Source: Calothrix sp. HK-06
GTDB lineage: Bacteria > Cyanobacteriota > Cyanobacteriia > Cyanobacteriales > Nostocaceae
Direction of reading: 5' to 3'
Assembly: GCF_001904745.1 (NCBI RefSeq)
Contig: NZ_MRCD01000102.1
Coordinates: 1-32,308 of the forward strand
DNA length: 32,308 bases
A model generated the notes under the pieces. That model saw only the letters and a program-made list of their open reading frames with translations, made no database searches and was not told the DNA's origin. The translations under genes and the position numbers were made by a program. Below, in pieces: positions 3 through 32,097 of the stretch (within the stretch, counting starts at the first letter, position 1; each line of letters starts with the position of its first letter).

Positions 3-1067
3 ATTGAAACATTATTAAAAGATGATTTAAGTAAATATAATGTAGTGTTACCAGAGACTATTGTCACCGAAGAAGCATTACAAATGGTTTTTGCTTCGGA
101 AGCAACATCTTTACAAGGAGTATCTCATTCTACTCCCTTTGCTTACACTACTGTTTTAGAAGATGTTTTTTACTGTCCTTTGTATTCAGTTATTCTCACC
201 AAAGATAGAAAAATTATCCGCGAATCGTTTAATATTACCAAACCAGTAGAAGATTTCAAGCTTGATTGTTTATTTACTTCCAAGGTTGAAGATATTTCTG
301 GGTATTCTGTTATTTGGCATCAAACCACGAATAATTACTATCATACGCTTATCGATAATCTAACCCGTTTTTATCTCACTTCCTTACACGACATCATTCA
401 AGATAATGATAATCACGTCAAGTTAATACATTCACGTAAAATTTTTGACATGGAATATTTTTACTTGTCGAAATTTCTCTCACCCAATATTCAAATTTGC
501 CAAGTACCAGGTTCTACATATACAGACCAACCTTTGCTGTTTCGTCTCGAAAAGCTGATTTTATCAAAATTTTTAAATCATAATTTTAGCGGTTTTATTC
601 CAAGTTCATACCGCAATCAGATTTTTACTCGGTTTTTACCTCAACGACCCCGCATCAAAAACAAGCGCATCTTCATTTCTCGACGACAAGCTTATAACCA
701 GCGTCATATTATCAACGAAGCTGAGGTTATTCAAACTCTTGCTATATATGGGTTTGAAGTTTATACTCTCGAAAAAATGTCTATAAACGAACAAATTGAG
801 CTTTTCTACGATGCTGATGCTGTTGTTGCTACTCACGGCGCCGGGTTAACTAATATATTATTCTCTGAGCATGTTAAAGTGCTAGAGCTTTTCCCTTACC
901 CTTTCGTTATTCCTTACTTTTACTATCTTGCTAAATCTATGGGTCATACGTACCAATATTGGTGTGGAAATGGTGAGTATAATGCGACGCAAGGTTGGAA
1001 TAGTAATTTTGTCGTTGATATTCTACAGTTACGGGAAGTTTTAGAGAAACCAGGCTTCTTTATATAG
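3..1067 (+). CDS. Family-61-type (DUF563) glycosyltransferase, 5' partial
   Basis: The frame is already open at the window edge (it reads IETLLKDDLSKYNVVLPETI), so the true start lies outside and the visible GTG at 45 is probably internal. The C-terminal half carries the DUF563/GT61 signature: an FISRRQAYNQRH segment, a conserved INEAEVI helix, then VVATHGAGLTNILFSEH and VLELFP. The family transfers sugars, often xylose or N-acetylglucosamine, and in cyanobacteria such genes usually sit in exopolysaccharide or glycoprotein clusters. The acceptor cannot be told from sequence. The gene converges on the CCA-adding enzyme, and the last codons overlap the left arm of an inverted repeat (1044-1108) that may end transcription of both. 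Family assignment is confident; substrate is unknown. Confidence 0.85.
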   Translation: METLLKDDLSKYNVVLPETIVTEEALQMVFASEATSLQGVSHSTPFAYTTVLEDVFYCPLYSVILTKDRKIIRESFNITKPVEDFKLDCLFTSKVEDISGYSVIWHQTTNNYYHTLIDNLTRFYLTSLHDIIQDNDNHVKLIHSRKIFDMEYFYLSKFLSPNIQICQVPGSTYTDQPLLFRLEKLILSKFLNHNFSGFIPSSYRNQIFTRFLPQRPRIKNKRIFISRRQAYNQRHIINEAEVIQTLAIYGFEVYTLEKMSINEQIELFYDADAVVATHGAGLTNILFSEHVKVLELFPYPFVIPYFYYLAKSMGHTYQYWCGNGEYNATQGWNSNFVVDILQLREVLEKPGFFI

Positions 1068-1108
1068 ATTAGCGTTTTTTGTTTAGGTTATCTTAGAAGC
1101 CTGGTTTC
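1044..1108. repeat. Inverted repeat (AGAAACCAGGCTTCT family) between convergent genes
   Basis: AGAAACCAGGCTTCT at 1044-1058 is the exact reverse complement of AGAAGCCTGGTTTCT at 1094-1108. The two are separated by 35 bases that include a short T-run. The left arm lies inside the last codons of the glycosyltransferase and the right arm ends at the stop of the convergent CCA-adding gene, so it may act as a shared transcription end. Related arms recur at 2362-2425 and 32223-32290. Confidence 0.75.
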
Positions 1109-2352
1109 TATGGCGCCAAAAATTGGCGAGCATATTCTATAGCTTCATCATAGGTAGAAACCTTACCTTCAATTTGCGCGATGGCAATTTCAGTCAGCAT
1201 TTTTCCTACCAGTGGCGAAGCTGGTATGTTTAGTGCTATAATCAGTTTCTTCCCATTTAATAAGGAAATGGGATGAGCCACCGGATCATCAGGGTTAAGG
1301 TAGCGGGCGATAATTGGTGCAATGCCCTCTACCAAATTATCACATGCCATTGCCATAATGCATGTTGCGGGCAATACGTTTTCCGCTTCCTTATACAACT
1401 CGTATTGTTCGCGCAATGGCATGTATGGTGTGTTTAACTTTGGGTACAGTCTTAATACAGTTATTACAGCTTTAATTTCAGCACGACTATAGCTAAGTCC
1501 GGTCAATTCACGTTCGGCTTGTTCTAAATTTGGACTCACTAGACATGCGAGTTTGGCAATACCTAGCCATGTTGTTTTTATAGTATCACGGATACATGTA
1601 TTTAGCTCAACTTCTAGCTGGCGCCATTTTTGTGATAGTTCTAAGTAAGCTGCATCGACTTTTTGTAACCGTGAATATGCTTCTGAGGTTATATTTTGAA
1701 AGAATGGTGCCAATAATTTGTCTTGTATAGCTTTTATTATCCAGGGAGTTCCTTGAGAATTTAGAAGCATGTAGCTCAGTTCGGTACGCACTCTCTCTGT
1801 GGCAACTTGAGTTAGTAGTGGCGCCAAAGTCCGAATGGTATTTTGAGTGTGGGTTTCTATATTAAAACCAAGTTGTGCAGCTTGACGATATCCACGCATT
1901 AACCGTAAAGGGTCATCTTCGAGGTTATGTTGCGAAACCATTCGTAAAATCCCCGCTTGTATATCAGCATAACCGCATAGGGGGTCGATTATTTCTTGGG
2001 TGTGAGGATTGAACGCGATAGCATTTATCGTAAAATCACGTCTATACAAATCTTTTTCTAAGCTGTCTCCTTCCTGCTGGGCAATATCTACCGTCGCATT
2101 GGCAAATACTACCCGTGCTATTTGTCTTTGGGGGTCGAGCAAAACAAACCCTGCTTTGTAATGTGCTGCAAGTTTCTGGGCAACACCAACCGCATTCTCC
2201 GGTAATACAAAATCTAAATCTAAATACTCGCGCTTTCTACCTAATATCGCATCCCGAACGGCGCCTCCCACTAAATAAATAGGTTGTGGTAATAAATCTA
2301 AATCAAAAGGATAATTTTCTGGAGATAAAGAAGGTAAAACTAAATTATACAT
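1108..2352 (-). CDS. cca: CCA tRNA nucleotidyltransferase / poly(A) polymerase family protein
   Basis: This is a class II nucleotidyltransferase that adds or repairs the 3' CCA end of tRNAs. In 414-aa numbering the active-site block reads YLVGGAVRD (26-34), followed by metal-binding Asp45 and Asp47 in LDLDFVL, the RRDFTINA motif (104-111) and EDDPLRLMRGYR (145-156), which follows the nucleotide-recognition region. No HD phosphohydrolase domain is seen, and the length fits the shorter bacterial enzymes. The frame continues three codons upstream to a TTG at 2361, but the ATG at 2352 is preferred because the upstream bases run into a dispersed repeat. No clear Shine-Dalgarno is visible. Some cyanobacteria split CCA addition between separate A- and CC-adding enzymes, so the exact nucleotide specificity is not settled. 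Family identity is very secure. Confidence 0.92.
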   Translation of the reverse strand: MYNLVLPSLSPENYPFDLDLLPQPIYLVGGAVRDAILGRKREYLDLDFVLPENAVGVAQKLAAHYKAGFVLLDPQRQIARVVFANATVDIAQQEGDSLEKDLYRRDFTINAIAFNPHTQEIIDPLCGYADIQAGILRMVSQHNLEDDPLRLMRGYRQAAQLGFNIETHTQNTIRTLAPLLTQVATERVRTELSYMLLNSQGTPWIIKAIQDKLLAPFFQNITSEAYSRLQKVDAAYLELSQKWRQLEVELNTCIRDTIKTTWLGIAKLACLVSPNLEQAERELTGLSYSRAEIKAVITVLRLYPKLNTPYMPLREQYELYKEAENVLPATCIMAMACDNLVEGIAPIIARYLNPDDPVAHPISLLNGKKLIIALNIPASPLVGKMLTEIAIAQIEGKVSTYDEAIEYARQFLAP

Positions 2353-2361
2353 TTTTGTCAA

Positions 2362-2425
2362 AGAAACCGGGTTTCTACCAAAGTTATCATGTTTATTACA
2401 ATCTCGATAAAAGAACCCGGTTTCT
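2362..2425. repeat. AGAAACCGGGTTTCT dispersed repeat pair
   Basis: AGAAACCGGGTTTCT (2362-2376) is nearly self-complementary and is followed by AGAACCCGGTTTCT (2412-2425), close to its reverse complement. It occupies the space between the divergent cca and ycf34 genes, so it sits in their 5' region. It shares its core with the repeats at 1044-1108 and 32223-32290. Confidence 0.75.
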
Positions 2426-2474
2426 CAAATTTTAAGCTAGATTAGCAATACAAGGTTATGGAGTTGATTCTATT

Positions 2475-2723: not shown

Positions 2724-2767
2724 CGCAACAGGGTATGGTGCGTTATGCCTTTGCGCGTCGCACCATT

Positions 2768-3508: not shown

Positions 3509-3509
3509 C

Positions 3510-4415: not shown

Positions 4416-4546
4416 GTTACTTTCGCGCGTATTCATCAATGATAATTTTATCTCAACAATATAATATATTGAGGCGCCGTAGAGAAACAGCGCACTCAAA
4501 TTCACTTTTATATAATAAGTTCCTGTATTTGTAGCGAATGAGTCAG

Positions 4547-4735: not shown

Positions 4736-4843
4736 GCTGTGTATTTATTAGCACATTTTCTACACTCTTATAACTTTGAATATACCTATTTTGTCAACAG
4801 TATTACAACAAGTTTTATTACAAACGGCGCCTGCTGTTACTCT

Positions 4844-4863: not shown

Positions 4864-4876
4864 TACGGTGGGCAGT

Positions 4877-5662: not shown

Positions 5663-5734
5663 CACAGCACCTTTATATAATAGATAAGTACTAAATTTAT
5701 GTTTAGTATATCCCGATTAAATTATTATAGGCGC

Positions 5735-6590: not shown

Positions 6591-7952
6591 TTAAATTCTG
6601 GCGCCACTGTACCATTTGATAAGTACTTTCGCAAGTTTTTGCGAGTCGTGACGAACGCACCCTTTTTCGTCTTCGTGCATTATATTCGCTAAGACGATAC
6701 GGCGCCCAAGTTTGGCTACGTCTTCTCGGTCTAAGAAAACGGGGTGTGAGTTTCCTTGAGCGTAACGTACTAATGCTCGTGGTGATGGTGATTTTTTATG
6801 GACGAGTACTGCGTTGAATAATGGTCTTCCACATGCTTTGTCTATTGCTTTGATGTGTTCGGAGACTGAGTAACCTTGAGTTTCACCCGGTTGTGTCATA
6901 ATGTTACACACGTAAATACGTGGTACGTCTGCTGCTGCGATTGCATCTGCTATTTGTGGTACTAGTAAATTAGGAATAACACTGGTGTAAAGGCTACCTG
7001 GACCCATGATTATATAATCGGCTTCTTTTATGGCTTTTATAGCTGCTGGTAAAGCTTTGGGGTCTATGGGTGTGCAACCAAAGTCTGTAATTGTACCTTT
7101 AGCATCGGTAATTTTTGATTCACCTACAATTCGGCGCCCGTCAGATAGTTCTGCCCAAAGACGAATATCACTGAGCGTTGCGGGTAAAACTTGTCCGCGA
7201 ATAGCTAAGACTTTAGAACTCGCAGCAACTGCACGCTCTAAGTCTCCTGTAATATCACTCAAAGCAGTTAAGAATAAGTTACCAAAACTATGACCGCTTA
7301 AACCGTCACCACTACTAAAACGATATTCAAATAATTCTGTTAACAGTTTTTCTTCATCTGCTAACGCGGTTAAACATTTACGGATATCTCCTGGTGGTAA
7401 CATGCCAAATTCTTCTCGTAGTCTACCAGAAGAGCCACCATCATCACCAACTGTCACAATTGCGGTGATATTAGCACTGTAGGTTTTGAGACCACGTAAT
7501 AAAGTTGACAGTCCTGTACCGCCACCAATAACTACTATTTTGGGACCTCGATATAATCGACGATGCGCTAGTAAAACATCTACTAGTTCCTCTTCGGCGC
7601 CAGGTCGAAGAACTTGAGTAATAGAGCTAACAGTGCGCGTTTGACCCCAAAGCAATAGTAACAGTCCCAGCAATAAAACAATGGGACCACTAATATAGTA
7701 GGGTACAATATCTGTGATTTTTCCTAAGAAATTTCTAAGTAATTCGATGGCCCAGAAAATTGGTGTGAGTCGAATCGAAATAGCCAACCCTAAAACTCCA
7801 AGCACCACACCACTGATGCTGATAAGTAGCCAACGCTTAACCGAAAGTCCTGGAGATAGCCACTTGAACCACTGGTTAACCCGGTAGGAAGTACGGCGCC
7901 TTGACTGAGGAAGCAGAGTGTTGAGGGCTTGTTTTATAAAACCAATTGACAT
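6591..7952 (-). CDS. yvcK: YvcK/GlmR-like (gluconeogenesis factor) family protein with N-terminal membrane spans
   Basis: From the ATG at 7952 (453 aa) the protein starts [20 protein letters not shown]. Two hydrophobic segments follow (about 41-62 and 89-103), a feature I associate with cyanobacterial members. The CofD-like core then begins with the nucleotide-binding [11 protein letters not shown] (142-152), followed by [31 protein letters not shown] and [12 protein letters not shown]. In Bacillus the relatives bind UDP-GlcNAc and influence carbon flux into cell-wall precursors; the reaction or ligand here is not proven. The frame extends 26 codons further upstream (to 8030), but that extension is Cys/His-rich and unlike the family. 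Divergent from ruvC with 176 bases between starts, enough for two promoters. Confidence 0.9.
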
Positions 7953-8128: not shown

Positions 8129-8620
8129 ATGGAAAAGCGCATTTTAGGATTAGACCCTGGTCTTGCCATTTTAGGTTTTGGCGCCATTACTTATACAGCA
8201 AGCAATAATATAGTTCAGGATACATCAGTAAAAATGCTTGACTTTGGCGTAATTCGCACAGAAGCAGGAACAGAAATGGGAACGCGCTTGTGTACTCTGT
8301 TTGATGATTTGCATACCCTAATTGAAGAAATTAAACCAGATTTAGTTGCGATAGAACAATTGTTTTTCTATCGAATGGGAAATACCATCTTAGTCGCCCA
8401 AGCACGCGGCGTCATTATGCTGGTACTAGCACAGCATAAACTACCATACGTCGAATTTGCACCAAAACAAGTCAAGCACGCTTTAACAGGGTATGGAAAT
8501 GCAGAAAAATACGAAGTTCAAGAAGCTGTAGCGCACGAATTAAATTTGGATGCTATACCAAAACCAGACGATGCCGCAGATGCATTAGCTATCGCATTAA
8601 CCGCATTGTATCAAATTTAA
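8129..8620 (+). CDS. ruvC: Holliday junction resolvase RuvC
   Basis: A 163-aa RuvC endonuclease with all four catalytic acidic residues: Asp9 in LGLDPG, Glu76 in AIEQLFF, and Asp148 and Asp151 in [12 protein letters not shown]. It cuts four-way junctions symmetrically after RuvAB branch migration in recombinational repair. The [16 protein letters not shown] helix and [18 protein letters not shown] loop are also canonical. The length is normal. No strong ribosome-binding site precedes the ATG. It is followed after 26 bases by the allantoinase-like gene on the same strand, which may be read through from the ruvC promoter although the pathways are unrelated. Confidence 0.95.
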
Positions 8621-8646: not shown

Positions 8647-9495
8647 ATGTTGTATCCACCATCTTACGACCCCCTTGACAGGCGCCCACTTTTAAAGCTA
8701 CCCAATAATGAGCGGGTAGCAGTTTGGGTAGTAATGAATGTAGAACATTTTACTTTTGGTAAACTTGGCACAGCAATTCAGCCACATTTAAATAGTCAGC
8801 CAGAAATTGCTAACTACGGTTGGCGAGATTATGGTAATAGAGTAGGAATATGGCGCCTGTTTGAGTTGTTCGCTGAATTATCCATACCAGTAACAGCAGC
8901 AGTCAACGGTGAAATTTGCACGCTGTACCCAGAAATTATGACGGCAATAAATACATATGGCTGGGAAGTCATGGCTCATGGTATTAATAATTCCACAGGT
9001 CATAGCGGTATGGATAAACAAACAGAGACACAAACTATTGAGAAAACCTTAAGTTTGTTAAAGCAGGCAACAGGAAAATTACCCAAGGGATGGTTAACAC
9101 CAGGGTTTTCCATCACAGAATCAACGTTTGAATTATTGCGCGGCGCCGGAATAGTATATACTGCTGACTGGGTTAACGACGACCAACCATATTGGTACCC
9201 GCTTCAAGATGGCCGAATGTTAGCGATACCGTATACGATTGAAGCTAATGATATCACGCTATGTTTGAGTAATAGATTTTCGGGCGCCGAATTTGCACAA
9301 GCGATACAAGACCAGTTTGACCAACTTTGGCTTGATGGCGAAAAAAACCCACGCATCATGGCTATAGGTTTACATCCCTTCATAGTCGGTCAACCATTAC
9401 GGTTAAAATATCTAAAACAGTGTTTATCATATATTAAAAGCAAGCCAGATACCTGGATAACTACAGGTGAGGCAATATATGAACATTTATCATGA
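8647..9495 (+). CDS. Polysaccharide-deacetylase-fold protein, PuuE-like allantoinase candidate
   Basis: A 282-aa NodB/CE4-fold protein. The blocks NERVAVWVVMNVEHFTFG, YGWRDYGNRVGIWRLFELF, ITAINTYGWEVMAHGINN and PKGWLTPGF match the PuuE branch (cofactor-independent allantoinases and related deacetylases) better than peptidoglycan deacetylases. No signal peptide is visible, so a cytoplasmic role fits. The stop overlaps the start of a ureidoglycolate-lyase-like gene by four bases (ATGA at 9492-9495), tying it to allantoin breakdown: hydrolysis of allantoin to allantoate, a nitrogen-recycling step. The family also contains chitooligosaccharide and other amide hydrolases; the partner gene is the main reason for preferring allantoinase. 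Confidence 0.75.
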   Translation: MLYPPSYDPLDRRPLLKLPNNERVAVWVVMNVEHFTFGKLGTAIQPHLNSQPEIANYGWRDYGNRVGIWRLFELFAELSIPVTAAVNGEICTLYPEIMTAINTYGWEVMAHGINNSTGHSGMDKQTETQTIEKTLSLLKQATGKLPKGWLTPGFSITESTFELLRGAGIVYTADWVNDDQPYWYPLQDGRMLAIPYTIEANDITLCLSNRFSGAEFAQAIQDQFDQLWLDGEKNPRIMAIGLHPFIVGQPLRLKYLKQCLSYIKSKPDTWITTGEAIYEHLS

Positions 9496-10070
9496 CAATA
9501 TCACAAACTAAAACCTTAACGATTCCCGTTATCGATGCAACTCAAGAAAATATCAAACCATATGGATATTTACTTGGTGACGATGTGAGTAAACCTGGTT
9601 TAGGAATACCCTTTTACCAAGAAAGAGTTCTTGAAGGTGAAAATATCGACTTTAGCTATCGTGGTACTGCTACATTTAGAACCGCAAAAATTATGCCGGG
9701 ATATCCCAATATTATCTGGTTAGAACGTCATATGCATATGACTCAGATGTTTATTGGGTTAGGACAATCACCTTTTATTATGGTGATGGCGCCACCTAAT
9801 TATGATAATGATAATCAAAATGTGCCAAATTTAAATGAAGTTAAAGCGTTACGTTTTCCACCAGGACACGGATTATTATTACATTTGGGTACATGGCACG
9901 ATTTTCCGATAGCGTGTGAAACACCCGTAGTTATTCTGACGGCAAACTCAGACGAGGTGGTAGCAGCATTAAGCGAGATGAAGGAACCAGGAGAAATGAA
10001 TCAAGGTGATGTGTATAAAATTTCGTTGCCTAAAAGATTGGGTTATGAAATTCAACTTGATGTAGCGTAA
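9492..10070 (+). CDS. Ureidoglycolate lyase family protein (AllA-like)
   Basis: A 192-aa cupin-like protein with the AllA pattern: KPYGYLLGD near the N-terminus, WLERHMHMTQMFIGLG (the ERHxxxTQxFI core) and GTWHDFPIA near the C-terminal third. AllA splits ureidoglycolate into glyoxylate and urea, the last step of one allantoin route. The ATG overlaps the upstream stop codon, so translation is coupled to the PuuE-like gene. No allantoicase or allantoate amidohydrolase is present in the window, so the intermediate steps must be encoded elsewhere. It is about 30 residues longer than E. coli AllA, mainly at the N-terminus. A bidirectional terminator follows directly. Confidence 0.78.
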   Translation: MTISQTKTLTIPVIDATQENIKPYGYLLGDDVSKPGLGIPFYQERVLEGENIDFSYRGTATFRTAKIMPGYPNIIWLERHMHMTQMFIGLGQSPFIMVMAPPNYDNDNQNVPNLNEVKALRFPPGHGLLLHLGTWHDFPIACETPVVILTANSDEVVAALSEMKEPGEMNQGDVYKISLPKRLGYEIQLDVA

Positions 10071-17930: not shown

Positions 17931-17957
17931 AGCACAGGCGCCGCCCCTACCTGTGCT
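17931..17957. terminator. Stem-loop between convergent genes
   Basis: AGCACAGG (17931-17938) pairs with CCTGTGCT (17950-17957) around an 11-base loop; the stem base overlaps a GGCGCC palindrome. It lies between the ends of the convergent membrane-protein gene (17884) and SDR gene (17972). No T-run follows, so terminator function is uncertain. Confidence 0.5.
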
Positions 17958-22531: not shown

Positions 22532-23806
22532 ATGAAGTTAAGATATTTCTTACTTGCGAGTGCGAGTGTTGTAATGCTATGCGCTCCTGTTAATGCTGCT
22601 CGTTTAGAGTCTTGGTATTTTGACCAAGCGCAAAACAAACTCAACATAACTACAGAATCTGGTGTTCGACCAAGAGCATTTTTAATCAATAATCCCACAC
22701 GCTTAGTTATTGACCTTCCTAATACAGATTTAGAAGGAAATACGCTTCGTCAAACTTATGGTGCTGCGATTAAAGAAATTCGTGTTGGCAAGTTTGATGC
22801 TAACACAACTAGATTGGTTGTGGAACTGGCGCCGGGATACACGGTACAACCAGATAAGGTATTAATTCAAGGTGATACATCATCGCACTGGATTGTCAAT
22901 TTCTCTTCAATAGAACGTATTGCAAGTGGTGATTCACAGTCGGGTGAGGTTAAAACACCAGTTCAAGTAGGTAGTATTTCACCCTTTGCTGGAGTGGTAC
23001 CTCTAGGTAATGAAATCACACAACTAAGTTCACAAGTCCGGTCTTTGATGTCACGTTACAGTTCGCTTGACCCAGGATTATTTTTTATTGATTTAGAAAC
23101 GGGGAATTATGTAGATTACAACGGTGAAAAAGCATTTTCAGCAGCGAGTACAATTAAGTTTCCGATATTAATTGCTTTATTCCAAGAAATTGATGCTGGT
23201 CGAGTTAAGTTAAACGAAACATTAACAATGCGTCGTGACTTAGTGACTGGTGGTTCTGGTACAATGCAATATCGGGCACCGGGAACTAAATTCAGCTTGC
23301 TAGAAACGGCAACTAGAATGATTACCATCAGCGATAACACCGCAACTAATATGATAATCGACCGTTTAGGTGGCAAAAATAAGTTAAATCCGCGCTTCCG
23401 CAGTTGGGGATTACAAAATACCGTAATTCGGAACTTACTTGGTGACTTTAAAGGAACTAATACAACAAGTCCCAAAGATTTGGTCAGATTATCTGCTTTA
23501 GTTGCTAATAATCAATTACTAAGTAACTCCAGTCGCACCAGAGCATTAGACATCATGCGTCGCGTTGAAAACACCAGCTTACTAGCATCTGGACTAGGAA
23601 GAGGCGCCACAATAGCGCATAAAACAGGTACACTAGGAGTCATTCTCGGAGATGCAGGAATCATCCAAATGCCCAACGGTAAACGTTACCTAGCAGGTAT
23701 CTTTGTCAGAAGACCTTTTGGTGACAGAAGAGGTACAGAATTTATCTCTCAAGTTTCCCGCACCGTATACAGTTTCCTCAGTCAACCCAGAGTTGCCCAA
23801 AAATAA
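22532..23806 (+). CDS. AMIN domain plus class A beta-lactamase-like (serine hydrolase) protein
   Basis: A 424-aa exported protein. Signal peptide MKLRYFLLASASVVMLCAPVNA (cleavage near residue 22-23). An AMIN domain (about 24-128, RLESWYFDQAQNKLNITTES) is known to bind peptidoglycan in amidases and secretins. The penicillin-recognising domain (about 165-420) has STIK with Ser206/Lys209, SDN (267-269) and KTG (364-366). The class A omega-loop glutamate (ExxLN) is not found between SDN and KTG, so fast beta-lactam hydrolysis is doubtful; a D,D-peptidase-like or regulatory wall role is as likely. The combination anchors the hydrolase to the cell wall. The ATG gives a perfect signal peptide. Confidence 0.9.
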   Translation: MKLRYFLLASASVVMLCAPVNAARLESWYFDQAQNKLNITTESGVRPRAFLINNPTRLVIDLPNTDLEGNTLRQTYGAAIKEIRVGKFDANTTRLVVELAPGYTVQPDKVLIQGDTSSHWIVNFSSIERIASGDSQSGEVKTPVQVGSISPFAGVVPLGNEITQLSSQVRSLMSRYSSLDPGLFFIDLETGNYVDYNGEKAFSAASTIKFPILIALFQEIDAGRVKLNETLTMRRDLVTGGSGTMQYRAPGTKFSLLETATRMITISDNTATNMIIDRLGGKNKLNPRFRSWGLQNTVIRNLLGDFKGTNTTSPKDLVRLSALVANNQLLSNSSRTRALDIMRRVENTSLLASGLGRGATIAHKTGTLGVILGDAGIIQMPNGKRYLAGIFVRRPFGDRRGTEFISQVSRTVYSFLSQPRVAQK

Positions 23807-23869: not shown

Positions 23870-23936
23870 TAAAGTTTCAATATATAAGGGATTCTTCGCT
23901 ACGTGACTAATGACAAATTTCGGCGCCAAAAATCCA

Positions 23937-24158: not shown

Positions 24159-26747
24159 TTAAAGCCAGTTACCTACTAGTATGTAAGGCGCCCAGAAACC
24201 GGGTCGGGTATAATTTGGATATTTAGTTAATAATGTGATTTGGGCTTTTCTTAGTGCTTCGGCTTTTGTGACTTTGGTTTTGGCTAGTTCTCGGTAAAAT
24301 TCCCCTATTAATATAGATGTGGATTTGTCGTTGACGTGCCATAGTGATGCTAATGTACTTCTGGCGCCTGCTTTGAGTGATGCTCCTGCTAACCCTAATG
24401 TCGCGCGGTTGTCTCCAGCAGCGGTTTGACATGCACTTAGTACTAACATTTCTAATGCTTCAGGACGGGTTTCGTCGCGACGACGCAATAAGCTATCAAA
24501 CTGTGTGACATTTATTGGACCGTCGGCTGCTAGGATAAAGGTATTCTCGGCGCGCGAGCTAAATTGACCGTGGGTTGCTAGATGTAATACGTTATATCCA
24601 GAAGCATTAACTCTGGTTTCTAGGTTTTTACTGTTGAAGTTTTGGTTTAGTAATTGGGTATTGGAAACTCCTGCTTGAGATATTAAATTAAATTCGGACT
24701 GAATTTCTGGTAAAGGAGGAAATTGCTTTTTATAATTGAGTGGTGGTTGTATTAATCCACCTGCGAGTACATTGAGTTTTGTTTCTGCTAGGGGTTTCGG
24801 TTGAAATAGTTGTAATCCTAAACTTAATGCTACAGCGTATTTTTCAATCAGGTATTTTTGACCATCGTATAATGCTGCCATTGGCACGTTTCTTAAGGCG
24901 CCATCTAATACAAATACAAGTGTATTTATTTTGCTTTTTTCTAAATCAAATTCATTTGGTTTAATTAACCAGCTATAAACTTCTTGAGATAGCGCTTGTA
25001 CATCTTCTGTACGGTCTGGTTCTGTAATATACTCTCGAATTTGTTGGAGAACACTTTCTATTTCTGCTTGGGATTTTTTGATAGTGTAATGACGTAGCGG
25101 TTGTTGAGGAATTTTGACGATGATTTGAAGTTGTTCAGGAAGGATAATTGGGTAAATAATAGCAGCTGTGGAATTTGCTTCATCTACAACTTTATCAAGT
25201 AGTACTCTTTGCCCCTGTAGACAAGCTTCACGGAAAAAGTTATCTAGTTCTGCTAACTGTAGTGCTTCGATACGCGCTCTAGCTTTTTCTAATGTTTTTT
25301 CTGAGGTTTGCTGTGTGGAAAGTAATAAAGCAACTGATTCACGGTAGACTGGTTCTACGTTATCTCGAAAGTTAAATTGTATGTCTTGATTTACTGCTAC
25401 TAGGTCTGTTCGTAGTTGCTCTAAACTATCTACTGCTGCATCATATGCACTAATTGCTCCTTTAATATCACCTTCTGATTTCAAAATTCTTCCTAATTGC
25501 CATTGCCACAAATAAGCTATTTCAGCAGTATTTGTCTCTTTAGCTAAGTTTAATGCTTTTTCGGTAAGTTCGCGCGCTTGCTGCCATTGCTGTGTTTTTT
25601 CATATAAACTTCCTAACTTTCCTAGTGCATAAGCTTCCGCACGTGTATCACCAATGCTGCGAGATTGTTGTATTGCAGTTGCGAGAAGGGTGGAGGGGAG
25701 GGTGGGAGGGTGGGAGGGTGGGAGGGTGTGAGCGAAGTTTATTCGAGCGTAAATTGATGCGCGTGATGGGGGAAGTTGTTCTAATTGAGTTTGAATTGCT
25801 GGTATTAAAGTTTGAGCTTCATTTAATTTCTGTGTTTGAACTAGCAAACTATATTGATTAATTTGGGCTTGAACTTTGGTCAAGGGTGAAGGAGATGTTG
25901 TATATGTTTGTTGGTAAAATGATATAGCTTCTGGTATTTTCTGTTGCGCGCGGGCATTATTACCTAAATTTAGGAGAGTTGCGGCAGTGTAGATGGAAGA
26001 ATTTAATCGTTGGGATATTTCTAAACTTTTTTGTAAAACTCGGTCAGATTCTTCGAGTTTGCCAATTCTTTGTAGTGTGTTACCAAGCGAAAGTAACGCT
26101 ATTACTTTATCTAGTGAGTCTGGTTGAGATTGTAAGGTTTGATTTGTTTGTGCAAGCATTTCGAGCGCGCGACGGTTAAACCCCTGATTTCGTAAAGCTT
26201 GAGATTGATTGAGACGTGCGAGTGCTATACTATTCTTATCTCCTATTTTTGTGTAAATTTCCTCCATTTCCTTCCAGGTTGAAAGCGCTTGTTCTGAATG
26301 CCCTGTTTCTAACTGTAATCGTCCTTGAATATCTAAACTTTGGGCAAGAATAGGAAGGTTGATATTGTTTTGTAATGCTTTTTGATATCCTTGTAGGTTC
26401 AAGCTTTGAGTAATTGTGTTTTGAGCTTGTTTCCAGTCACCTAACTGTTGATATGTGAGTGAAAGATTACTCAGAGCTACTGCTTGTTCGAGTGTTTTAC
26501 CTTGCTTTTGATACGAGTCAACAGCTTGCTGTAATATTTGTGCAGCTTCAACATAGCGTCCGCTGTCATATAATAATTTACCAGTCTCTTGCATTTGTAA
26601 TTCTACGTTTTTTAGGTAGGGAGTATTTGCAAAAGCGGGTAATAATTGAACACATAATATAGTAGTTATAACCATAACTACTATATATCTTAAGTAGGAT
26701 TTACGTAAAGAAACTAGGCATCTAGTGAGAAATTGTGTTTTTTTCAT
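24159..26747 (-). CDS. Exported TPR-CHAT domain protein (putative cysteine protease)
   Basis: An 862-aa protein. A signal or anchor sequence (about 19-41, YIVVMVITTILCVQLLPAFA) is followed by tetratricopeptide repeats (about 50-450; for example AVALSNLSLTYQQLGDWKQAQ), a coiled linker (about 450-560) and a C-terminal CHAT domain (about 600-862). The catalytic dyad of clan CD peptidases is visible: His726 in HLATHGQF and Cys773 in LSACQTA, with GLAGASLKAGARSTLASLW after it. CHAT proteins include separase-like proteases; relatives in Craspase-type systems cleave partners after activation. Here TPRs would select the partner, outside or at the membrane. The gene contains an 8-bp tandem repeat (25693-25728). 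Downstream of the DUF1822 and sigma genes on the same strand, with a 261-base gap. Confidence 0.9.
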   Translation of the reverse strand: MKKTQFLTRCLVSLRKSYLRYIVVMVITTILCVQLLPAFANTPYLKNVELQMQETGKLLYDSGRYVEAAQILQQAVDSYQKQGKTLEQAVALSNLSLTYQQLGDWKQAQNTITQSLNLQGYQKALQNNINLPILAQSLDIQGRLQLETGHSEQALSTWKEMEEIYTKIGDKNSIALARLNQSQALRNQGFNRRALEMLAQTNQTLQSQPDSLDKVIALLSLGNTLQRIGKLEESDRVLQKSLEISQRLNSSIYTAATLLNLGNNARAQQKIPEAISFYQQTYTTSPSPLTKVQAQINQYSLLVQTQKLNEAQTLIPAIQTQLEQLPPSRASIYARINFAHTLPPSHPPTLPSTLLATAIQQSRSIGDTRAEAYALGKLGSLYEKTQQWQQARELTEKALNLAKETNTAEIAYLWQWQLGRILKSEGDIKGAISAYDAAVDSLEQLRTDLVAVNQDIQFNFRDNVEPVYRESVALLLSTQQTSEKTLEKARARIEALQLAELDNFFREACLQGQRVLLDKVVDEANSTAAIIYPIILPEQLQIIVKIPQQPLRHYTIKKSQAEIESVLQQIREYITEPDRTEDVQALSQEVYSWLIKPNEFDLEKSKINTLVFVLDGALRNVPMAALYDGQKYLIEKYAVALSLGLQLFQPKPLAETKLNVLAGGLIQPPLNYKKQFPPLPEIQSEFNLISQAGVSNTQLLNQNFNSKNLETRVNASGYNVLHLATHGQFSSRAENTFILAADGPINVTQFDSLLRRRDETRPEALEMLVLSACQTAAGDNRATLGLAGASLKAGARSTLASLWHVNDKSTSILIGEFYRELAKTKVTKAEALRKAQITLLTKYPNYTRPGFWAPYILVGNWL
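25692..25728. repeat. (GGTGGGAG)n tandem octamer with G-quadruplex potential, inside the CHAT gene
   Basis: Three full copies of GGTGGGAG (25701-25724) plus a partial fourth (25725-25728), preceded by a degenerate copy (25693-25700). Together they form a run of G-triplets separated by single bases. In the minus-strand gene the tract encodes a Pro/Ser/Thr stretch (LPPSHPPTLPSTLL). Because the unit is eight bases, gain or loss of one copy would shift the reading frame. Confidence 0.9.
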
Positions 26748-27008: not shown

Positions 27009-28154
27009 TTAAAACCGTAGAATTTCGCGTTCGTAGTTTTCAGGTGTTGGTTCAACTTCCCAAACGATACCTTCTCCAGATTCAAGCATGACTTCAACAT
27101 ACAGCAGTTCTAATGGTGCCGTTGCAACATCTTCATTATTTGTAAACATTTGTAAATCTTCGGTTAGCAGTCTTAACTTAAAACCTTCAGGTATTAAACC
27201 TTCTGAATTAAAACTTCGTAATTCAAACCGCCAAACTAGTTCCGAAGCATTACCTTTAGAGAAAATGCGTAACTCGTATGCATCACCAGCTATTAACAGT
27301 TGTCGAGACAACCCTATTGTAGATGTTTCTTTGCTTCGCATACCTGTTGGCGCCGTTATAAATTCGCGTGTTGACCAACCAAGCTGGGTTGCAAAATTTG
27401 AAATTCCATCAGTCAGCCACTGTAGAACAGATGTTTGCTGTGTTAAGCCTTGTCGTAATTCATACAAACGTTGGCGCCAACCACCGTGTGCTAGCAATGC
27501 TCCCCAAAGCTGAAATGGAATTTCTAAACGTGGAAATTTAACGTCTGCTCCTAAACGTTGTAATAAATTTTCAGCTTGAGCTTGGGGTAATGGTGGTAGT
27601 TCTGATATCGAAGCGCGCGTGACTTCAGGGTAATATTGAGTAGTCAACCACAAAACGTTTAAATCTTGAATTAAATCTTCTGTTTCCAAATCGTAGGTAC
27701 GGTCGCTAGTGTTATAAACACCAAAAGTTTTGATATTTTGATGGTTTGTGTAGCCATAAACTCTTGCCCAACCTTCATCTGGGTTTACCTGTACTGCTAA
27801 ATAGTAATCACCAACCCATTGAGGAATATCTATCCACTCTTGCGGTACACGTAGTTCATCACTATCCATTGCTAAAGTTGGTATTAACACTAAACGCGCG
27901 CTACCAAAACTAATAGCTGTACCGTTGACAAACTCCCAAATACTAGCCAATGCTGCATTATTAGGATAAACCGTTGGAGTCACAGAAAATTCTTCGCCCA
28001 ACATGCATAAAAATGCGTCCAAACACAGTTTGTTAATTAAAGCACGCTGACTGGCGCCTGCGGTTAAGAACTTTTGTTCTGGTGCAGTAAATGTTTGAGG
28101 AATTTCCAGAATGTGTTCATTATCAAGTAAAGAGGGGAAAGACGCGCTAAACAT
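27009..28154 (-). CDS. DUF1822 family protein
   Basis: A 381-aa protein with the DUF1822 pattern. N-terminus FPSLLDNEHILEIPQTF, then a helix with ALINKLCLDAFLCML, the strand block VPQEWIDIPQWVGDYYLAVQVNPDEGWARVYGYT, and a C-terminal beta domain (LRLLTEDLQMF, LYVEVMLESGEGIVWEVEP). The function of the family is not known. Its start lies 18 bases after the stop of the sigma-factor gene, so the two are co-transcribed. I recall this sigma/DUF1822 pairing as common in filamentous cyanobacteria, sometimes with CHAT genes nearby. A role as partner or regulator of the sigma factor is a reasonable but untested inference. No signal peptide, so probably cytoplasmic. Confidence 0.88.
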   Translation of the reverse strand: MFSASFPSLLDNEHILEIPQTFTAPEQKFLTAGASQRALINKLCLDAFLCMLGEEFSVTPTVYPNNAALASIWEFVNGTAISFGSARLVLIPTLAMDSDELRVPQEWIDIPQWVGDYYLAVQVNPDEGWARVYGYTNHQNIKTFGVYNTSDRTYDLETEDLIQDLNVLWLTTQYYPEVTRASISELPPLPQAQAENLLQRLGADVKFPRLEIPFQLWGALLAHGGWRQRLYELRQGLTQQTSVLQWLTDGISNFATQLGWSTREFITAPTGMRSKETSTIGLSRQLLIAGDAYELRIFSKGNASELVWRFELRSFNSEGLIPEGFKLRLLTEDLQMFTNNEDVATAPLELLYVEVMLESGEGIVWEVEPTPENYEREILRF

Positions 28155-28172: not shown

Positions 28173-29369
28173 TTAATTATCTGCTAGGTAATTAGTATGG
28201 CCGTAATAATTTTTGAGCCATTCCTCCAAGCTTTTGCTTACTGCATCTAGTACGTTAGATGTGGGACTAATATGCATGTTGTTTGTACTCCATTGAGTTA
28301 AAGCTAGTAACAACGTGCGTTTAATGCTCGTCAAACGGCGAGAAACAGTGTATTGCTTCATATCTAGCTTTTTGGCAATTTGCTGTTGAGTTAGCTGTTG
28401 CTCGTAATAGACTTGCAGTAGTTGCTGTGACTCTGTATCGAGTGCTGCTATGGCATCAGTCAAAACTTGGGTTAGCTCGACTTGTTGCTTTTGCCTATCT
28501 ATATATTCTTCTTGGGTAATAACTTTCATCAGTAGCGACGTATCTTCCGAAGCTGGTAACACATCAAGTAAATTACCAGTTTCTTGCCCTGTAAATGTAG
28601 CATCAGCAGAAACCATTTTTGGGAACAGATAGTTACGTGCAGCTACACAGCAAGCACTTATCCATTTTTCCAAATTTTCTGGGGTTGCTTTCGAGTTAGA
28701 TGTCAACTGACTCAACTGCTGTACATTATATAAGTCAGCTATTGACTGCCAAGTTGAAGTACCAGGTTTATTCAGAGCGCGAGTTTTCTTACCTTCAGTT
28801 GCGTATATTTCCTTAAAACATTCCCAAGCTAGAAGGTAGCTCTCAATAATTTGACTGTTATAGCCCGCATTCGTCAAGGCGCCTATCAAGCGTTTACGGC
28901 TAATTTTGTGTAGTAATGACCAATCGCTACAAATATCTGCTTCGTGATGTAAGCGTAACGAGTCTTTGATAAAACCCTCAAAAGCTAATTCGGCATAACT
29001 TTTTAAACTACTTCCAAGTTCTGAGTTGAAGTTTTTCAGTATCTTGGGAACGCGCGCGATAGCGATTTGAAAGCAGTCAGCTATGCTACATTGACTTTTA
29101 AAGTTCAGCGCCATTTTTTTCGCCGTCCAGTAGCACACCTCCTGTAAGTAAGCTGAAATATGTGCCATTGCAAGAGGATTTGATTCAGCTTGCCATATTT
29201 TATGCCAATAAACTGCCCAAAGCCTGTCTGTTTGCGTTTGTGGTGATTGTTCCAAGCAGTATTTTATACTACGTCTCAACTTAGCATCGGTTGCCCAAGT
29301 GCTAAACCTATCTGCATCGAATAGCAGAAAGGTAGAAAATATTTCGATAATGCTCTGCCTAGGTTGCAT
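28173..29369 (-). CDS. Sigma-70 family RNA polymerase sigma factor (group-3-like)
   Basis: From the ATG at 29369 the protein is 398 aa and starts MQPRQSIIEIFSTFLLFDAD, a start I associate with a divergent cyanobacterial sigma class (SigJ-like). The frame extends 16 codons upstream without family features. The N-terminal two thirds are helical (SIKYCLEQ, ISAYLQEVCYWTAKKMALNF, FEGFIKDSLRLHHEADICSD) in place of a canonical region 2. A sigma-4-type helix-turn-helix is clear at about 326-350 (LTQQQIAKKLDMKQYTVSRR), preceded by LDTESQQLLQVYYEQQ. It should direct RNA polymerase to a special promoter set. First gene of the sigma-DUF1822 operon and divergent from the calpain-like protease gene. I avoid a gene symbol because orthology cannot be proved here. 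Confidence 0.85.
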   Translation of the reverse strand: MQPRQSIIEIFSTFLLFDADRFSTWATDAKLRRSIKYCLEQSPQTQTDRLWAVYWHKIWQAESNPLAMAHISAYLQEVCYWTAKKMALNFKSQCSIADCFQIAIARVPKILKNFNSELGSSLKSYAELAFEGFIKDSLRLHHEADICSDWSLLHKISRKRLIGALTNAGYNSQIIESYLLAWECFKEIYATEGKKTRALNKPGTSTWQSIADLYNVQQLSQLTSNSKATPENLEKWISACCVAARNYLFPKMVSADATFTGQETGNLLDVLPASEDTSLLMKVITQEEYIDRQKQQVELTQVLTDAIAALDTESQQLLQVYYEQQLTQQQIAKKLDMKQYTVSRRLTSIKRTLLLALTQWSTNNMHISPTSNVLDAVSKSLEEWLKNYYGHTNYLADN

Positions 29370-29750: not shown

Positions 29751-31487
29751 ATGTTTAATCAATCACAGTCTTTCGGTCGTCAAGATACACTCAATACTAA
29801 TCTTAATACTTCTGCCGCAAACTTGTCTGCTTCTTCAAATGGTTTAGATACGAAAATATCAGCTTTAAATCTTCAAACTAGTGCTAGCTTAAATAATTTT
29901 AGCTCGAGCATTTTAGCAGCCAATGGTAGCAACGCATCGGCAGATAGTAACAATACCATGTCTACTGCGACAGCTTGGGCACCGTTAAATGGTTGGTTTG
30001 CACATGGTGAAAGTATTGGAGGCACTGATACAAACGACTATTTTAGTTTTAGCTTAAATAGCACTAGTGACTTGAGTATGGTAATGTCGGGATTGAGTGC
30101 TGATGTTGATATTCGTTTACTAGATGCTAATGGAAATGAAATTGCGCTTTCTAACAATAGCGGAACTCATAGTATAGGTGGTAACGCTTATAAAGTGGGT
30201 ACATCCGAAGCTTTTGATGTTACGCTCAATGCAGGTAGTTATTACTTTAAAGCTAGTTCTTATGATGGTGGTGTAAGTGATTATAAGATGAATTTTTTGG
30301 CAAAACCAGTTACATATGGCTCAGATTGGTATAGTCAAAACCTTAAAGATAGTGGCATTAAGAATTGGGCACGTGAATTTGGCAGCGATGGTAAATTAGG
30401 ACGTAATGAAATGATGTTAATAATGCGGAGTGCATTAGATGGAGGTACTGTTGATGCTAATGAGTTAAGCGACTTACGAAAACTGATTGGAAGCTTTCAG
30501 ATGGATGACTATGTGAAAAACTTATCTACAAAGGTTGCTTTTGGTAGTAGTGCTAACGCCAAGTATCAAGAAGAAAGTCTAGGTAACTTGGTAGCTGGTA
30601 GTTCTGCAACACATCTTGATAAATTAATAGGCAAGTGGTTTTTAGGTAATGACTTACCTTCCACTAGTATATCTTCAGGTGGAACAATTAGCTATGGTTT
30701 AGCAAACACAAGTGGGCTGTCTGGTCGTAACCAAGTATTATTTGGCCAAGATAGCACTAGTAGCCAAGTCAAGATGAGTACTTCAGATATCAAACAAGGT
30801 TCTTTAGCTGATTGTTATTTTGTGGCTTCATTAGGCGCGCTAGCTGGTAACAGCCAGCATGGTCTATCTTCGATAAATAATATGTTTATTGATAATGGCG
30901 ATGGTACATTTACAGTTCGCTTCTATGGTCAAAATGATGGGAAAGTGACTACAGGCGCCGAATATGTTACCGTCAACCAATATTTATCAGGAAGCCTAGC
31001 TGGTTATGATAACCAAAATACAGGTTTGTGGGTAGCCTTAGCAGAAAAAGCTTATGCTCAGTTTTCAGAGTTAGGTATTTCTCAGCGCTCTAGCACAGCT
31101 AATAATTACGGTAGTATTGAATATGGTTCGGGCTTCCGAGTCATGAATGCAATTACTGGTGTCACCCAAGGTGGTGTGTATGCTAACTACTCTACAGTTG
31201 GCTCGGCAACACCATTAGGAGGTTTCTTAAGTTTATCAGACATTGCTAGCCGTTTAAATCAGGGATGGGCGATGACAGCAGATACAGTTGGCTCAGATAA
31301 AGCTGTAAAAGCAGGAATTGTTGGAGGTCATGAGTATATAGTTGTAAGTGCTAATACCTCGAATGGAACGCTTACACTCTACAATCCTTGGGGTTCAACA
31401 TCCGCAGAGCGAGGTGAAACCAATGGTTATAAAACTATTTCCTACAATGATTTCAAGAATGTCTTCGATGTGATTAATGTTGGTTAG
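29751..31487 (+). CDS. Calpain-like (C2 family) cysteine protease with PPC domain
   Basis: A 578-aa protein from the ATG at 29751, preceded by AAGGA (29738-29742) at good spacing; a longer non-ATG start is unlikely. Residues 1-60 are Ser/Asn/Thr-rich without a classical signal peptide. A bacterial pre-peptidase (PPC-like) beta domain follows (about 60-185, NDYFSFSLNSTSDLSMVMSG, VDIRLLDANGNEI). The C-terminal calpain core has Cys355 in KQGSLADCYFVASLGALA, His527 in VGGHEYIVVSAN and Asn545 in LYNPWGS, a complete Cys-His-Asn triad. Bacterial calpain-like proteases are poorly studied; the PPC domain suggests export. Divergent from the sigma operon, which places it beside another cysteine protease gene (TPR-CHAT). 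Confidence 0.9.
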   Translation: MFNQSQSFGRQDTLNTNLNTSAANLSASSNGLDTKISALNLQTSASLNNFSSSILAANGSNASADSNNTMSTATAWAPLNGWFAHGESIGGTDTNDYFSFSLNSTSDLSMVMSGLSADVDIRLLDANGNEIALSNNSGTHSIGGNAYKVGTSEAFDVTLNAGSYYFKASSYDGGVSDYKMNFLAKPVTYGSDWYSQNLKDSGIKNWAREFGSDGKLGRNEMMLIMRSALDGGTVDANELSDLRKLIGSFQMDDYVKNLSTKVAFGSSANAKYQEESLGNLVAGSSATHLDKLIGKWFLGNDLPSTSISSGGTISYGLANTSGLSGRNQVLFGQDSTSSQVKMSTSDIKQGSLADCYFVASLGALAGNSQHGLSSINNMFIDNGDGTFTVRFYGQNDGKVTTGAEYVTVNQYLSGSLAGYDNQNTGLWVALAEKAYAQFSELGISQRSSTANNYGSIEYGSGFRVMNAITGVTQGGVYANYSTVGSATPLGGFLSLSDIASRLNQGWAMTADTVGSDKAVKAGIVGGHEYIVVSANTSNGTLTLYNPWGSTSAERGETNGYKTISYNDFKNVFDVINVG

Positions 31488-31521
31488 GTTGATAAGCTGT
31501 TATGCTTTTAATTTTAATAAT

Positions 31522-31541
31522 GGGACGGGCAAGGATGCCCG
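31522..31541. repeat. CGGGCAAGGATGCCCG palindromic repeat, left copy
   Basis: CGGGCAAGGATGCCCG (31526-31541) has a GGGC/GCCC stem around AAGGAT. It lies 34 bases after the calpain gene stop. A reverse-complement copy lies at 32146-32166, so the two flank the 170-aa gene in inverted orientation. Confidence 0.75.
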
Positions 31542-31584
31542 TTATACAAGACTACAAGAGTTTTATTAGGGAATTTATTTGTAT

Positions 31585-32097
31585 ATGTATAAATGGCAAA
31601 TCAGTCTTGCAATCGCTAGTTTAACTAGTTTAGCTTTAATAATTTACGCGCGTAACTATCAGGCGGTAGGCAAAGTAGTTCCATCATCAATTGAAAAAAC
31701 AATGCAAAATACACCTCCGAGTCAAGTTAAAGTCAGTCCATCACTAAACTTGCAAATTTGGCAAAATGACCCGAAGAGACCTTTAAGCGGCGCCTATAAA
31801 GTCGGTAGTCAACTTGGTTTTGCAACTATAGACTTTCTTTTAGAGAATACAACAGAAAAACCAATTACAATCCAGCTAGAGAAAATAGAAGTTCGCAGAT
31901 TGAACTCAAAGTCAAATCAGCCATTAATGTCTTTACCTGCTAAAAGTATAACACTTGGAGGTTTGGAATATGCTCCTCAGCGCTATCAATTAAGTAATCG
32001 AGATGGTTATCAAAGTGGGCAAGTTGAGGCAATTGTTGTTTATAAATTAGATGGTAAACAGTATATATTACGTTCGGCACCTGTGTCCGCGCGTTAA
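31585..32097 (+). CDS. Hypothetical membrane-anchored protein (170 aa)
   Basis: From the ATG at 31585 the protein starts MYKWQISLAIASLTSLALII, an N-terminal signal anchor; a TTG two codons upstream is the alternative. The rest is a soluble, probably beta-rich domain that lies outside the cytoplasm: LNLQIWQNDPKRPLSGAYKV, FATIDFLLENTTEKPITIQL, and a charged middle (EKIEVRRLNSKSNQPLMSL). The strand pattern recalls small immunoglobulin-like domains, but I do not recognise a family and give no function. It lies 97 bases after the calpain gene on the same strand, separated from it by a palindromic repeat, so co-transcription is uncertain. Confidence 0.7.
   Translation: MYKWQISLAIASLTSLALIIYARNYQAVGKVVPSSIEKTMQNTPPSQVKVSPSLNLQIWQNDPKRPLSGAYKVGSQLGFATIDFLLENTTEKPITIQLEKIEVRRLNSKSNQPLMSLPAKSITLGGLEYAPQRYQLSNRDGYQSGQVEAIVVYKLDGKQYILRSAPVSAR

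Follow-up and report, generated by a model that had tools for sequence, protein, structure and literature searches.

The hexamer GGCGCC is repeated throughout the genome of the cyanobacterium Calothrix sp. HK-06, including the stretch of 32,308 nucleotides analysed here (contig NZ_MRCD01000102.1, positions 1 to 32,308; hereafter the window), where it stands in place of the highly iterated palindrome 1 (HIP1, GCGATCGC). HIP1 is repeated thousands of times in most cyanobacteria, and its function has remained unsettled since it was described in 1995. The GGCGCC array is real, strong and genome-wide; it is of a kind known from a congener, and the present analysis widens its range to a clade and directly tests its conservation as a DNA word. 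Overall, GGCGCC is probably an alternate HIP that has replaced HIP1 in one genus, being methylated, gained at or before the root of that genus, and held by weak purifying selection.

An exact count of the window finds 53 GGCGCC sites, the first at 837-842 and the last at 31789-31794, which agrees with the sequence-only reading of this DNA that had put the number at about 53 and far above chance. Shuffled versions of the window with the dinucleotides preserved (n = 100) hold 2.2 on average and 6 at most. HIP1, which the same reading had reported as absent, is indeed found 0 times (shuffling expectation 0.15). Markov models of orders 1, 2, 3 and 4 expect 2.19, 1.78, 6.59 and 26.15 GGCGCC, the expectations of the upper orders being higher because the motif itself is absorbed into the model. 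GGCGCC ranks first among the 6-mers of the window, and the top-ranked 7- to 10-mers all include it. The flanks of the 53 sites form no fixed 8-mer, as had been claimed, with a preceding G (1/53) and a following C (6/53) both being rare. As a perfect palindrome, GGCGCC has no strand direction, unlike Chi, and the sites in the window are as follows.

837..842, no strand, GGCGCC site
1112..1117, no strand, GGCGCC site
1620..1625, no strand, GGCGCC site
1820..1825, no strand, GGCGCC site
2260..2265, no strand, GGCGCC site
4473..4478, no strand, GGCGCC site
4826..4831, no strand, GGCGCC site
6600..6605, no strand, GGCGCC site
6701..6706, no strand, GGCGCC site
7133..7138, no strand, GGCGCC site
7596..7601, no strand, GGCGCC site
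7895..7900, no strand, GGCGCC site
8180..8185, no strand, GGCGCC site
8681..8686, no strand, GGCGCC site
8852..8857, no strand, GGCGCC site
9142..9147, no strand, GGCGCC site
9283..9288, no strand, GGCGCC site
9788..9793, no strand, GGCGCC site
10231..10236, no strand, GGCGCC site
10297..10302, no strand, GGCGCC site
10538..10543, no strand, GGCGCC site
11050..11055, no strand, GGCGCC site
11278..11283, no strand, GGCGCC site
11974..11979, no strand, GGCGCC site
12388..12393, no strand, GGCGCC site
13474..13479, no strand, GGCGCC site
13909..13914, no strand, GGCGCC site
14857..14862, no strand, GGCGCC site
15200..15205, no strand, GGCGCC site
15757..15762, no strand, GGCGCC site
16283..16288, no strand, GGCGCC site
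16433..16438, no strand, GGCGCC site
16874..16879, no strand, GGCGCC site
17629..17634, no strand, GGCGCC site
17937..17942, no strand, GGCGCC site
18840..18845, no strand, GGCGCC site
19448..19453, no strand, GGCGCC site
20197..20202, no strand, GGCGCC site
20724..20729, no strand, GGCGCC site
21349..21354, no strand, GGCGCC site
22212..22217, no strand, GGCGCC site
22828..22833, no strand, GGCGCC site
23603..23608, no strand, GGCGCC site
23922..23927, no strand, GGCGCC site
24187..24192, no strand, GGCGCC site
24363..24368, no strand, GGCGCC site
24897..24902, no strand, GGCGCC site
27349..27354, no strand, GGCGCC site
27473..27478, no strand, GGCGCC site
28053..28058, no strand, GGCGCC site
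28878..28883, no strand, GGCGCC site
30954..30959, no strand, GGCGCC site
31789..31794, no strand, GGCGCC site

The whole genome (G000; 9,990,453 bases in 243 contigs) holds 15,449 GGCGCC, or 1546 per Mb, against 6 of the reversed control CCGCGG, and 88 HIP1 against 66 of its reversed control; neither of the outcomes that the sequence-only reading had named as fatal to it, a genome-wide GGCGCC count near its Markov expectation or a high HIP1 count elsewhere, has occurred. In a 284-kb sample of this genome GGCGCC lies 20-fold above a second-order Markov model (406 vs 20.6), GATC is scarce (79 vs 687; 4 vs about 75 in the window), and the remaining GRCGYC words are likewise depleted. Six stretches totalling 300 kb, namely the window and five others, with genes called from open reading frame length only, contain 415 coding GGCGCC, spread over the three phases, and 47 non-coding ones, the density being higher in coding DNA (1.66 vs 0.94 per kb), in keeping with the earlier remark that the sites occur in genes and in gaps. 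The GGC-GCC phase accounts for 227 of the coding sites and the other two for 88 and 100. The density expected of an alternate HIP, roughly 500-2500 per Mb for a GC-rich palindrome, and the accompanying low or near-absent HIP1 are thus both found in this genome; the word itself is not GCGATCGC, and the array is therefore not HIP1 proper.

The swap of GGCGCC for HIP1 is genus-wide. Sixty genomes of the order were surveyed, of which seven belong to the genus of Dulcicalothrix desertica PCC 7102 (G004) and Calothrix PCC 7103 (G005), 29 to other genera of the same family and 24 to other families; the remaining members of the genus are G000, PCC 7716 (G002), NIES-4105 (G003) and the metagenome-assembled genomes C42_A2020_038 (G001) and FI2-JRJ7 (G006). 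All seven carry 7475-20,380 GGCGCC (1150-1711 per Mb), with HIP1 at just 31-163 in each, and a lineage lacking HIP1 with GGCGCC at HIP-like density, as the sequence-only reading had supposed, does exist. The 29 family genomes outside the genus hold 3-530 GGCGCC and 535-7721 HIP1 each, the array being present in 0/29, and the 24 genomes of other families hold 2-2493 GGCGCC and 134-10,167 HIP1. Loss of HIP1 is not sufficient for a GGCGCC array, because one genome of another genus in the family (G028) is low in both, with only 535 HIP1 in 10.7 Mb, 326 GGCGCC and no array; its GATC count is 2 vs 98 expected in 40 kb (L171, L172). Among 388 genomes of the class, in a table read by eye for which G000 was the sole genus member drawn, no second genome combined more than 1000 GGCGCC per Mb with a ratio to the reversed control of at least 4.

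Candidates for such a second lineage were rejected. G265 has a ratio of 3.9 in a GC-rich genome and a mild excess in 30 kb (70 vs 31.6), about 2-fold over the Markov model; it holds 9489 GGCGCC in 3.8 Mb against 304-343 in its congeners G042, G254 and G287, and its most enriched 6-mer is AGCGCC. Samples of G043 (20 kb) and G276 (4.8 kb) were without enrichment, and a 1-kb sample of G357 (L169) was excluded from this check. As regards other palindromic 6-mers, 13 of 16 examined fall below half of expectation in a 2.49-Mb pool of the seven genus genomes (observed/expected: CCGCGG 0/166, TGCGCA 5/749, GCATGC 2/359, GTCGAC 1/193, GAGCTC 7/298), the exceptions being AGCGCT at 0.78, GCGCGC at 1.6 and CGCGCG at 3.1 times expectation. 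CGCGCG (1097 vs 349) is unconstrained (71 synonymous changes vs 45.2 expected) and is possibly another methylated word.

GGCGCC as an alternate HIP is a kind already published. Elhai (2015; PMC4390886) described it from the congener PCC 7103 and a 19-kb portion of strain D253, noting that HIP1 was low, GATC extremely depleted and two GRCGYC methyltransferases present. The same paper presented such exceptional HIPs as sporadic and not clade-wise, and proposed a mismatch-repair ratchet directed by GmeC. The strains of that account and the genus studied here are alike in the word, the loss of HIP1, the depletion of GATC and other GRCGYC words and the presence of GRCGYC-type methyltransferases; the report covers one genome and 19 kb, whereas the array is found here in seven of seven genomes. 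HIP1, as that source describes it, is likewise a GC-rich palindrome found about once per kb, within and between genes, and is accompanied by solitary methyltransferases that match it; the word and the methyltransferase differ, and in this genus HIP1 occurs at close to background frequency. Chi sites and DNA uptake sequences share with these arrays the property of being short words repeated genome-wide (PMC4390886). Selection on HIP1 has been argued by Xu, Lawrence and Durand (2018, as cited in PMC6604393). The 2015 paper was the only literature found to join Calothrix with GGCGCC, in a search that covered subscription journals poorly, and absence from print is not claimed. What is added here is the genus-wide extent, the constraint at the level of the hexamer, the C>T footprint and a comparison with relatives whose methyltransferase is linked to a nuclease.

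Evidence on what maintains the array comes from substitutions. The six stretches of G000 were aligned to the six congeners (110-165 kb each, with identity thresholds against paralogues), and ancestral bases were reconstructed by parsimony in an ingroup of G000, G006, G005, G002 and G004, the outgroups being G003 and G001. Expected changes were derived from trinucleotide context and class (synonymous, non-synonymous or non-coding) and calibrated on DNA free of GGCGCC and its near-misses. Figures are quoted on topology C where it was run (FastTree on more columns, with G005 outside the other four); topology A, which is not the best rooting, was used for the ratios of single stretches, the hexamer ranking, the codon control, the CGCGCG transitions, the near-miss rates, the spacing and the reconstruction of net loss. 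Setting aside the transition at the inner cytosine (C3>T, with its complement G4>A), synonymous changes inside GGCGCC number 27 vs 144.5 expected, a ratio of 0.19 (0.22 and 0.23 on two other topologies), and non-synonymous changes 14 vs 33.1. The 20 bases on each side have 714 synonymous changes vs 664.8 (1.07) and 355 non-synonymous vs 300.9. The synonymous constraint is consistent over all six stretches (0.09-0.48; 3 vs 16.8 in the window alone). Moreover, of the 826 hexamers for which the data sufficed, with CpG transitions and words overlapping GGCGCC left out, GGCGCC is the most constrained at 0.23, followed by 0.45 for the next and 0.98 for the median.

A codon control, in which protein and codon are identical so that only the hexamer differs, leads to the same view. 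The third base of GCC changed by C>T in 9/1036 branch-codons after GGC vs 64/1992 elsewhere, and by C>A/G in 3/1036 vs 30/1992; the third base of GGC changed by C>A/G in 1/1046 before GCC vs 29/1738 elsewhere, and by C>T in 48/1046 vs 66/1738. Near-misses of the word show little of this at synonymous sites: GGTGCC/GGCACC 6 vs 7.3 expected, position-1 variants 19 vs 23.3, position-2 variants outside GRCGYC 24 vs 19.0, and GACGCC/GGCGTC 8 vs 5.0. On these small numbers GGTGCC is not an accepted variant, because it changes at a near-neutral rate. GGCGCC is thus conserved as a DNA word in its own right at synonymous sites.

The one change that escapes this constraint points to cytosine methylation. 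C3>T in GGCGCC is seen 92 times vs 66.6 expected (1.38), and in GACGCC/GGCGTC 10 times vs 2.1, about 5-fold on a small count, while the other near-misses with a central CG (13 vs 17.7) and all other xxCGxx words (983 vs 995.1) show no excess. Topology A gives 96 vs 67.2 for GGCGCC, 7 vs 1.8 for GACGCC/GGCGTC, and 997 vs 1016.2 for xxCGxx outside GRCGYC, near-misses included. An excess in GRCGYC words, and not in the other near-misses, agrees with the prediction for 5-methylcytosine (m5C) at GRmCGYC. If the constraint of 0.19 applied to this change as well, the input of C3>T would be about seven times background.

An enzyme that could place such a mark is encoded throughout the genus. Searches with PF00145 found many m5C methyltransferases across the seven genomes, and one cluster is represented in all of them: a BsaHI-type (GRCGYC) gene that sits between RuBisCO-like and SLH-domain genes in 7/7, split in G000. 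It has the C5 cytosine methylase domain (E 6.6e-66 for the G006 copy), the TL motif and the target-recognition stretch YYRHPRxYxRR(A/G)IFSIxEPSPT(I/V)R of the BsaHI/HgiDI type, the latter nearly identical in nuclease-linked relatives; the TL motif is preceded by Arg and Gly/Ala at a spacing that matches PMC2413257 approximately only. M.BsaHI methylates the central C of GRCGYC in the account of Neely and Roberts (2008; PMC2413257), and a matching methyltransferase, with its specificity predicted by homology, is thus encoded in all seven genomes, as an alternate HIP should have it. The two halves of the G000 locus lie at the edges of contigs C29 (L069:1-323) and C207 (L070:1-317), each with one end of the gene, and the C29 part diverges after GGPP; the split may be an insertion or an assembly gap. 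A further contig, C60 (16.8 kb), has two more copies, of which one is complete and 83% identical and the other is partial. Beside the RuBisCO-like gene, L069:1743-5037 encodes a 661-aa m5C methyltransferase and a 436-aa partner of no known family, a pair missing from the equivalent spot in G006 (L078).

The nuclease that would make this a complete GRCGYC restriction-modification system was not found in the genus, with PF09519 (HindVP-type) matches in 0/7 genomes vs 6/53 of the other genomes searched. Each of those six nucleases adjoins a methyltransferase 62-69% identical to that of the genus, in genomes with few GGCGCC (G025 4, G026 3, G029 6, G033 12, G054 88, G058 11). The wider set of relatives, the best 80 of 454 found in GTDB representatives, comprises six genus loci, which hold 13-33 GGCGCC in 8.9 kb, and 74 others, with none in 69 cases and one in five. 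A HindVP nuclease match, in some cases partial, lies at 53 of the 74. The RuBisCO-like and SLH neighbours were not seen at three loci of the nearest outside relatives (G027, CSU_2_0 and C. elsteri). In a tree of 84 rows, from which one row with an inner stop was excluded, the six chromosomal orphans and the C60 copy form one clade (support 100/99) inside a branch (100/97) that also contains the second copies of the genus and six relatives, of which five are nuclease-linked and one is not; the exact sister of the orphan clade is poorly resolved (92/12). The ratio of non-synonymous to synonymous substitution rates (dN/dS) among the copies is 0.05-0.17. Compared with BsaHI, HgiDI and HindVP systems, the enzyme of the genus is 62-72% identical to nuclease-adjacent enzymes with a common target-recognition stretch; unlike them, it lacks the nuclease, and GGCGCC is enriched rather than avoided. 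Around second, diverged GRCGYC-type copies, GGCGCC density is 3.0-3.7 per kb, about twice the average, on G003:C3 and G006:C38 (L046, L077/L287), 2.1 per kb on G005:C10 (L039) and 1.4 per kb on G002:C2 (L066).

Sites of G003 and G001 are retained in the five-species group at fractions of 0.894 and 0.882, computed on less DNA than the substitution test, against 0.500 and 0.352 for all 6-mers; conservation at homologous positions in relatives, a check put forward in the sequence-only reading, is thereby found. Both outgroups can be read at 132 sites fixed in the group; GGCGCC is present in both outgroups at 76 of these, in G003 alone at 37, in G001 alone at 4 and in neither at 15. Because most are present in the outgroups, a large part of the array dates from the time of the genus root. 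Among 2038 branch-sites starting as GGCGCC, 121 were lost by any change, against 15 gains by one-base steps (2.4 expected); with all kinds of gain counted, topology A gives 17 gains vs 132 losses, and at 7 of the 17 G003 also has GGCGCC, so that losses or recombination may be the cause instead. Since losses so outnumber gains, no amplifying process is visible on the readable branches. The sequence-only reading had suggested that another palindrome took over either the role of HIP1 or the process that amplifies it; the first part is plausible, given the conserved hexamer and the methylation footprint, and the second is not borne out for the present.

These observations could be joined as follows. 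The tree and the neighbouring genes suggest that an ancestor carried a BsaHI/HindVP-type GRCGYC restriction-modification system. Its nuclease, now absent, would have been lost, and the m5C methyltransferase would have stayed as an orphan at the one spot where it is found. By the root of the genus or earlier, GGCGCC would have risen to the present density of about 1.5 per kb, with HIP1 and GATC declining to theirs. The enzyme family and the C>T excess in GRCGYC words, not seen in other near-misses, suggest that the inner C is methylated to give GGm5CGCC. Intact hexamers, in which substitution is suppressed, would be held by weak purifying selection against leakage from m5C deamination; if selection is assumed, a constraint of 0.19 would correspond to a scaled coefficient (2Ns) of about 2.7 and raise gains about 3-fold, and the gains other than T>C (6/588 branch-sites vs 1.44 expected) fit such a rise within error. 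The methylated sites might then serve a chromosome-wide job like the one proposed for HIP1, in repair or recombination signalling or chromosome organisation. It is possible, though doubtful, that the function of HIPs is word-independent altogether, the genus having recruited the methyltransferase of a dead restriction-modification system, with GGm5CGCC as the selected chromosome-wide mark and a reader protein that senses the mark in its context and not the HIP1 sequence.

Several findings weigh against the account of GGCGCC as a methylated alternate HIP under selection. The non-coding constraint is drawn from few events (7 vs 13.4), the model underpredicts changes in non-coding flanks (110 vs 75.1 expected), and suppressed substitution could in principle be hexamer-specific repair. 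Because losses exceed gains, the array is not at steady state. Methylation of GGCGCC and the specificity of the enzyme are deduced from the footprint and from homology, and the footprint is not wholly confined to GRCGYC, because CpG transitions in CGCGCG are also raised (28 vs 13.5). The chromosomal methyltransferase of G000 is split, and residues 88-208 were recovered from the assembly only in the two C60 copies. Two of the six outside nuclease frames are broken (G026 with two stops, G025 in two pieces). Low GGCGCC beside the nuclease is weak evidence, avoidance being no more than consistent with this account, because several family genomes without the pair are equally poor (G009, with a methyltransferase fragment, 3; G032 3; G013 8). 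Further, an orphan methyltransferase is not sufficient for the array, because 21 of the 74 outside loci are without a HindVP nuclease in the locus and still have no GGCGCC, and G027 has an orphan enzyme yet 277 GGCGCC and 6611 HIP1.

Alternative explanations have to be weighed against the same data. It is unlikely that the sites are functionless products of the ratchet of Elhai (2015), in which GmeC-directed mismatch repair favours mutations that create GGCGCC up to about one per kb and is then shut off locally. A methyltransferase that might mark the site is present in each of the seven genomes, the mean gap between sites is 573-800 bp in the stretches measured, and gaps below 100 bp are fewer than random (observed/random: G000 0.090/0.147, G001 0.068/0.117, G003 0.100/0.138, G006 0.110/0.160), all as a ratchet would have it, and gains, though few, exceed expectation. 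However, the balance of losses and gains runs the other way, and the T>C gains (9/116 branch-sites vs 0.94 expected) shift with the shape of the tree (three topologies give 7, 18 and 9), a pattern to be expected of repeated C>T losses. Local shut-off should space the sites evenly, and the spacing is otherwise random or clumped in six of seven genomes (coefficient of variation of the gaps 1.02-1.58; 0.91 in G001, with a variance/mean of 0.53 over 5 kb); no helical periodicity is seen at 10.5 or 11, and signals appear at period 3, because of codon phase, and at period 10. Repair spanning about 1 kb, moreover, would not confine protection to precisely six bases with the flanks at 1.07. A sequence-specific repair or restoration, Vsr-like in principle, that resets mutated GGCGCC and makes the constraint biochemical and not selective would explain the sharp confinement to the hexamer and the excess return of GGTGCC/GGCACC to GGCGCC, and is quite unlikely: Vsr (PF03852) matches 0/60 genomes, with 5/14 control genomes positive; it targets the T:G mismatches of deamination, yet C3>T is the sole unsuppressed change; and the T>C excess, rejected here as restoration, is probably in part mispolarisation. 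Both the ratchet and the repair fit less well because of the protection of just six bases, the few gains, a spacing that is not even overall and the lack of Vsr.

The excess of losses could also mean that the array is a fossil that arose on the stem lineage of the genus and is decaying without present function. Net loss since the five-species root is indeed found in all five genomes, from 257 reconstructed sites to 223 in G000, 222 to 200 in G006, 212 to 183 in G005, 251 to 228 in G002 and 235 to 227 in G004. A dead array should drift neutrally, however, whereas intact hexamers change at 0.19 of the synonymous expectation and near-misses near neutrality, so that a pure fossil is refuted if the constraint holds genome-wide and this explanation is very unlikely. 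Amino-acid and codon usage, with Gly-Ala pairs and favoured GGC and GCC codons making the DNA word irrelevant, would account for the favoured GGC-GCC phase, and is scarcely credible: 188 coding sites lie in the other phases and 47 outside genes, GGCGCC is rare in the 29 family genomes outside the genus, and the same codons outside GGC-GCC change more (GCC C>T 3.7-fold, GCC C>A/G 5-fold, GGC C>A/G 17-fold), only GGC C>T, the proposed deamination, not being raised there. The family counts and the codon comparison refute this explanation.

Two other features of the window were noted in passing. At 2768-4565, on the minus strand, lies a Dam-family adenine methyltransferase gene (MethyltransfD12, TIGR00571) with a 246-aa neighbour that is HNH nuclease-like by eye and has no family match; stretches of G005 and G002 have both flanks without the middle, and G006 retains part, so that the segment looks like a mobile restriction-modification island. 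At 29706-31487, a 593-aa open reading frame has a stretch resembling a calpain-type cysteine protease, its translation being judged by eye.

Finally, a sister lineage with the same kind of array in another word amounts to a natural experiment on HIP function. The features common to HIP1 and GGCGCC, namely density, palindromy, a methyltransferase and constraint, would be what the function needs, and the sequence itself would not. From their sporadic distribution, Elhai (2015; PMC4390886) judged that alternate HIPs fail to persist; an array conserved across a genus, together with the substitution test, argues against such non-persistence. Moreover, the findings suggest that what remains of a selfish restriction-modification system can turn into a chromosome-wide feature, and both the function of such a feature and its reader become testable in the culture strains PCC 7102 and PCC 7103.

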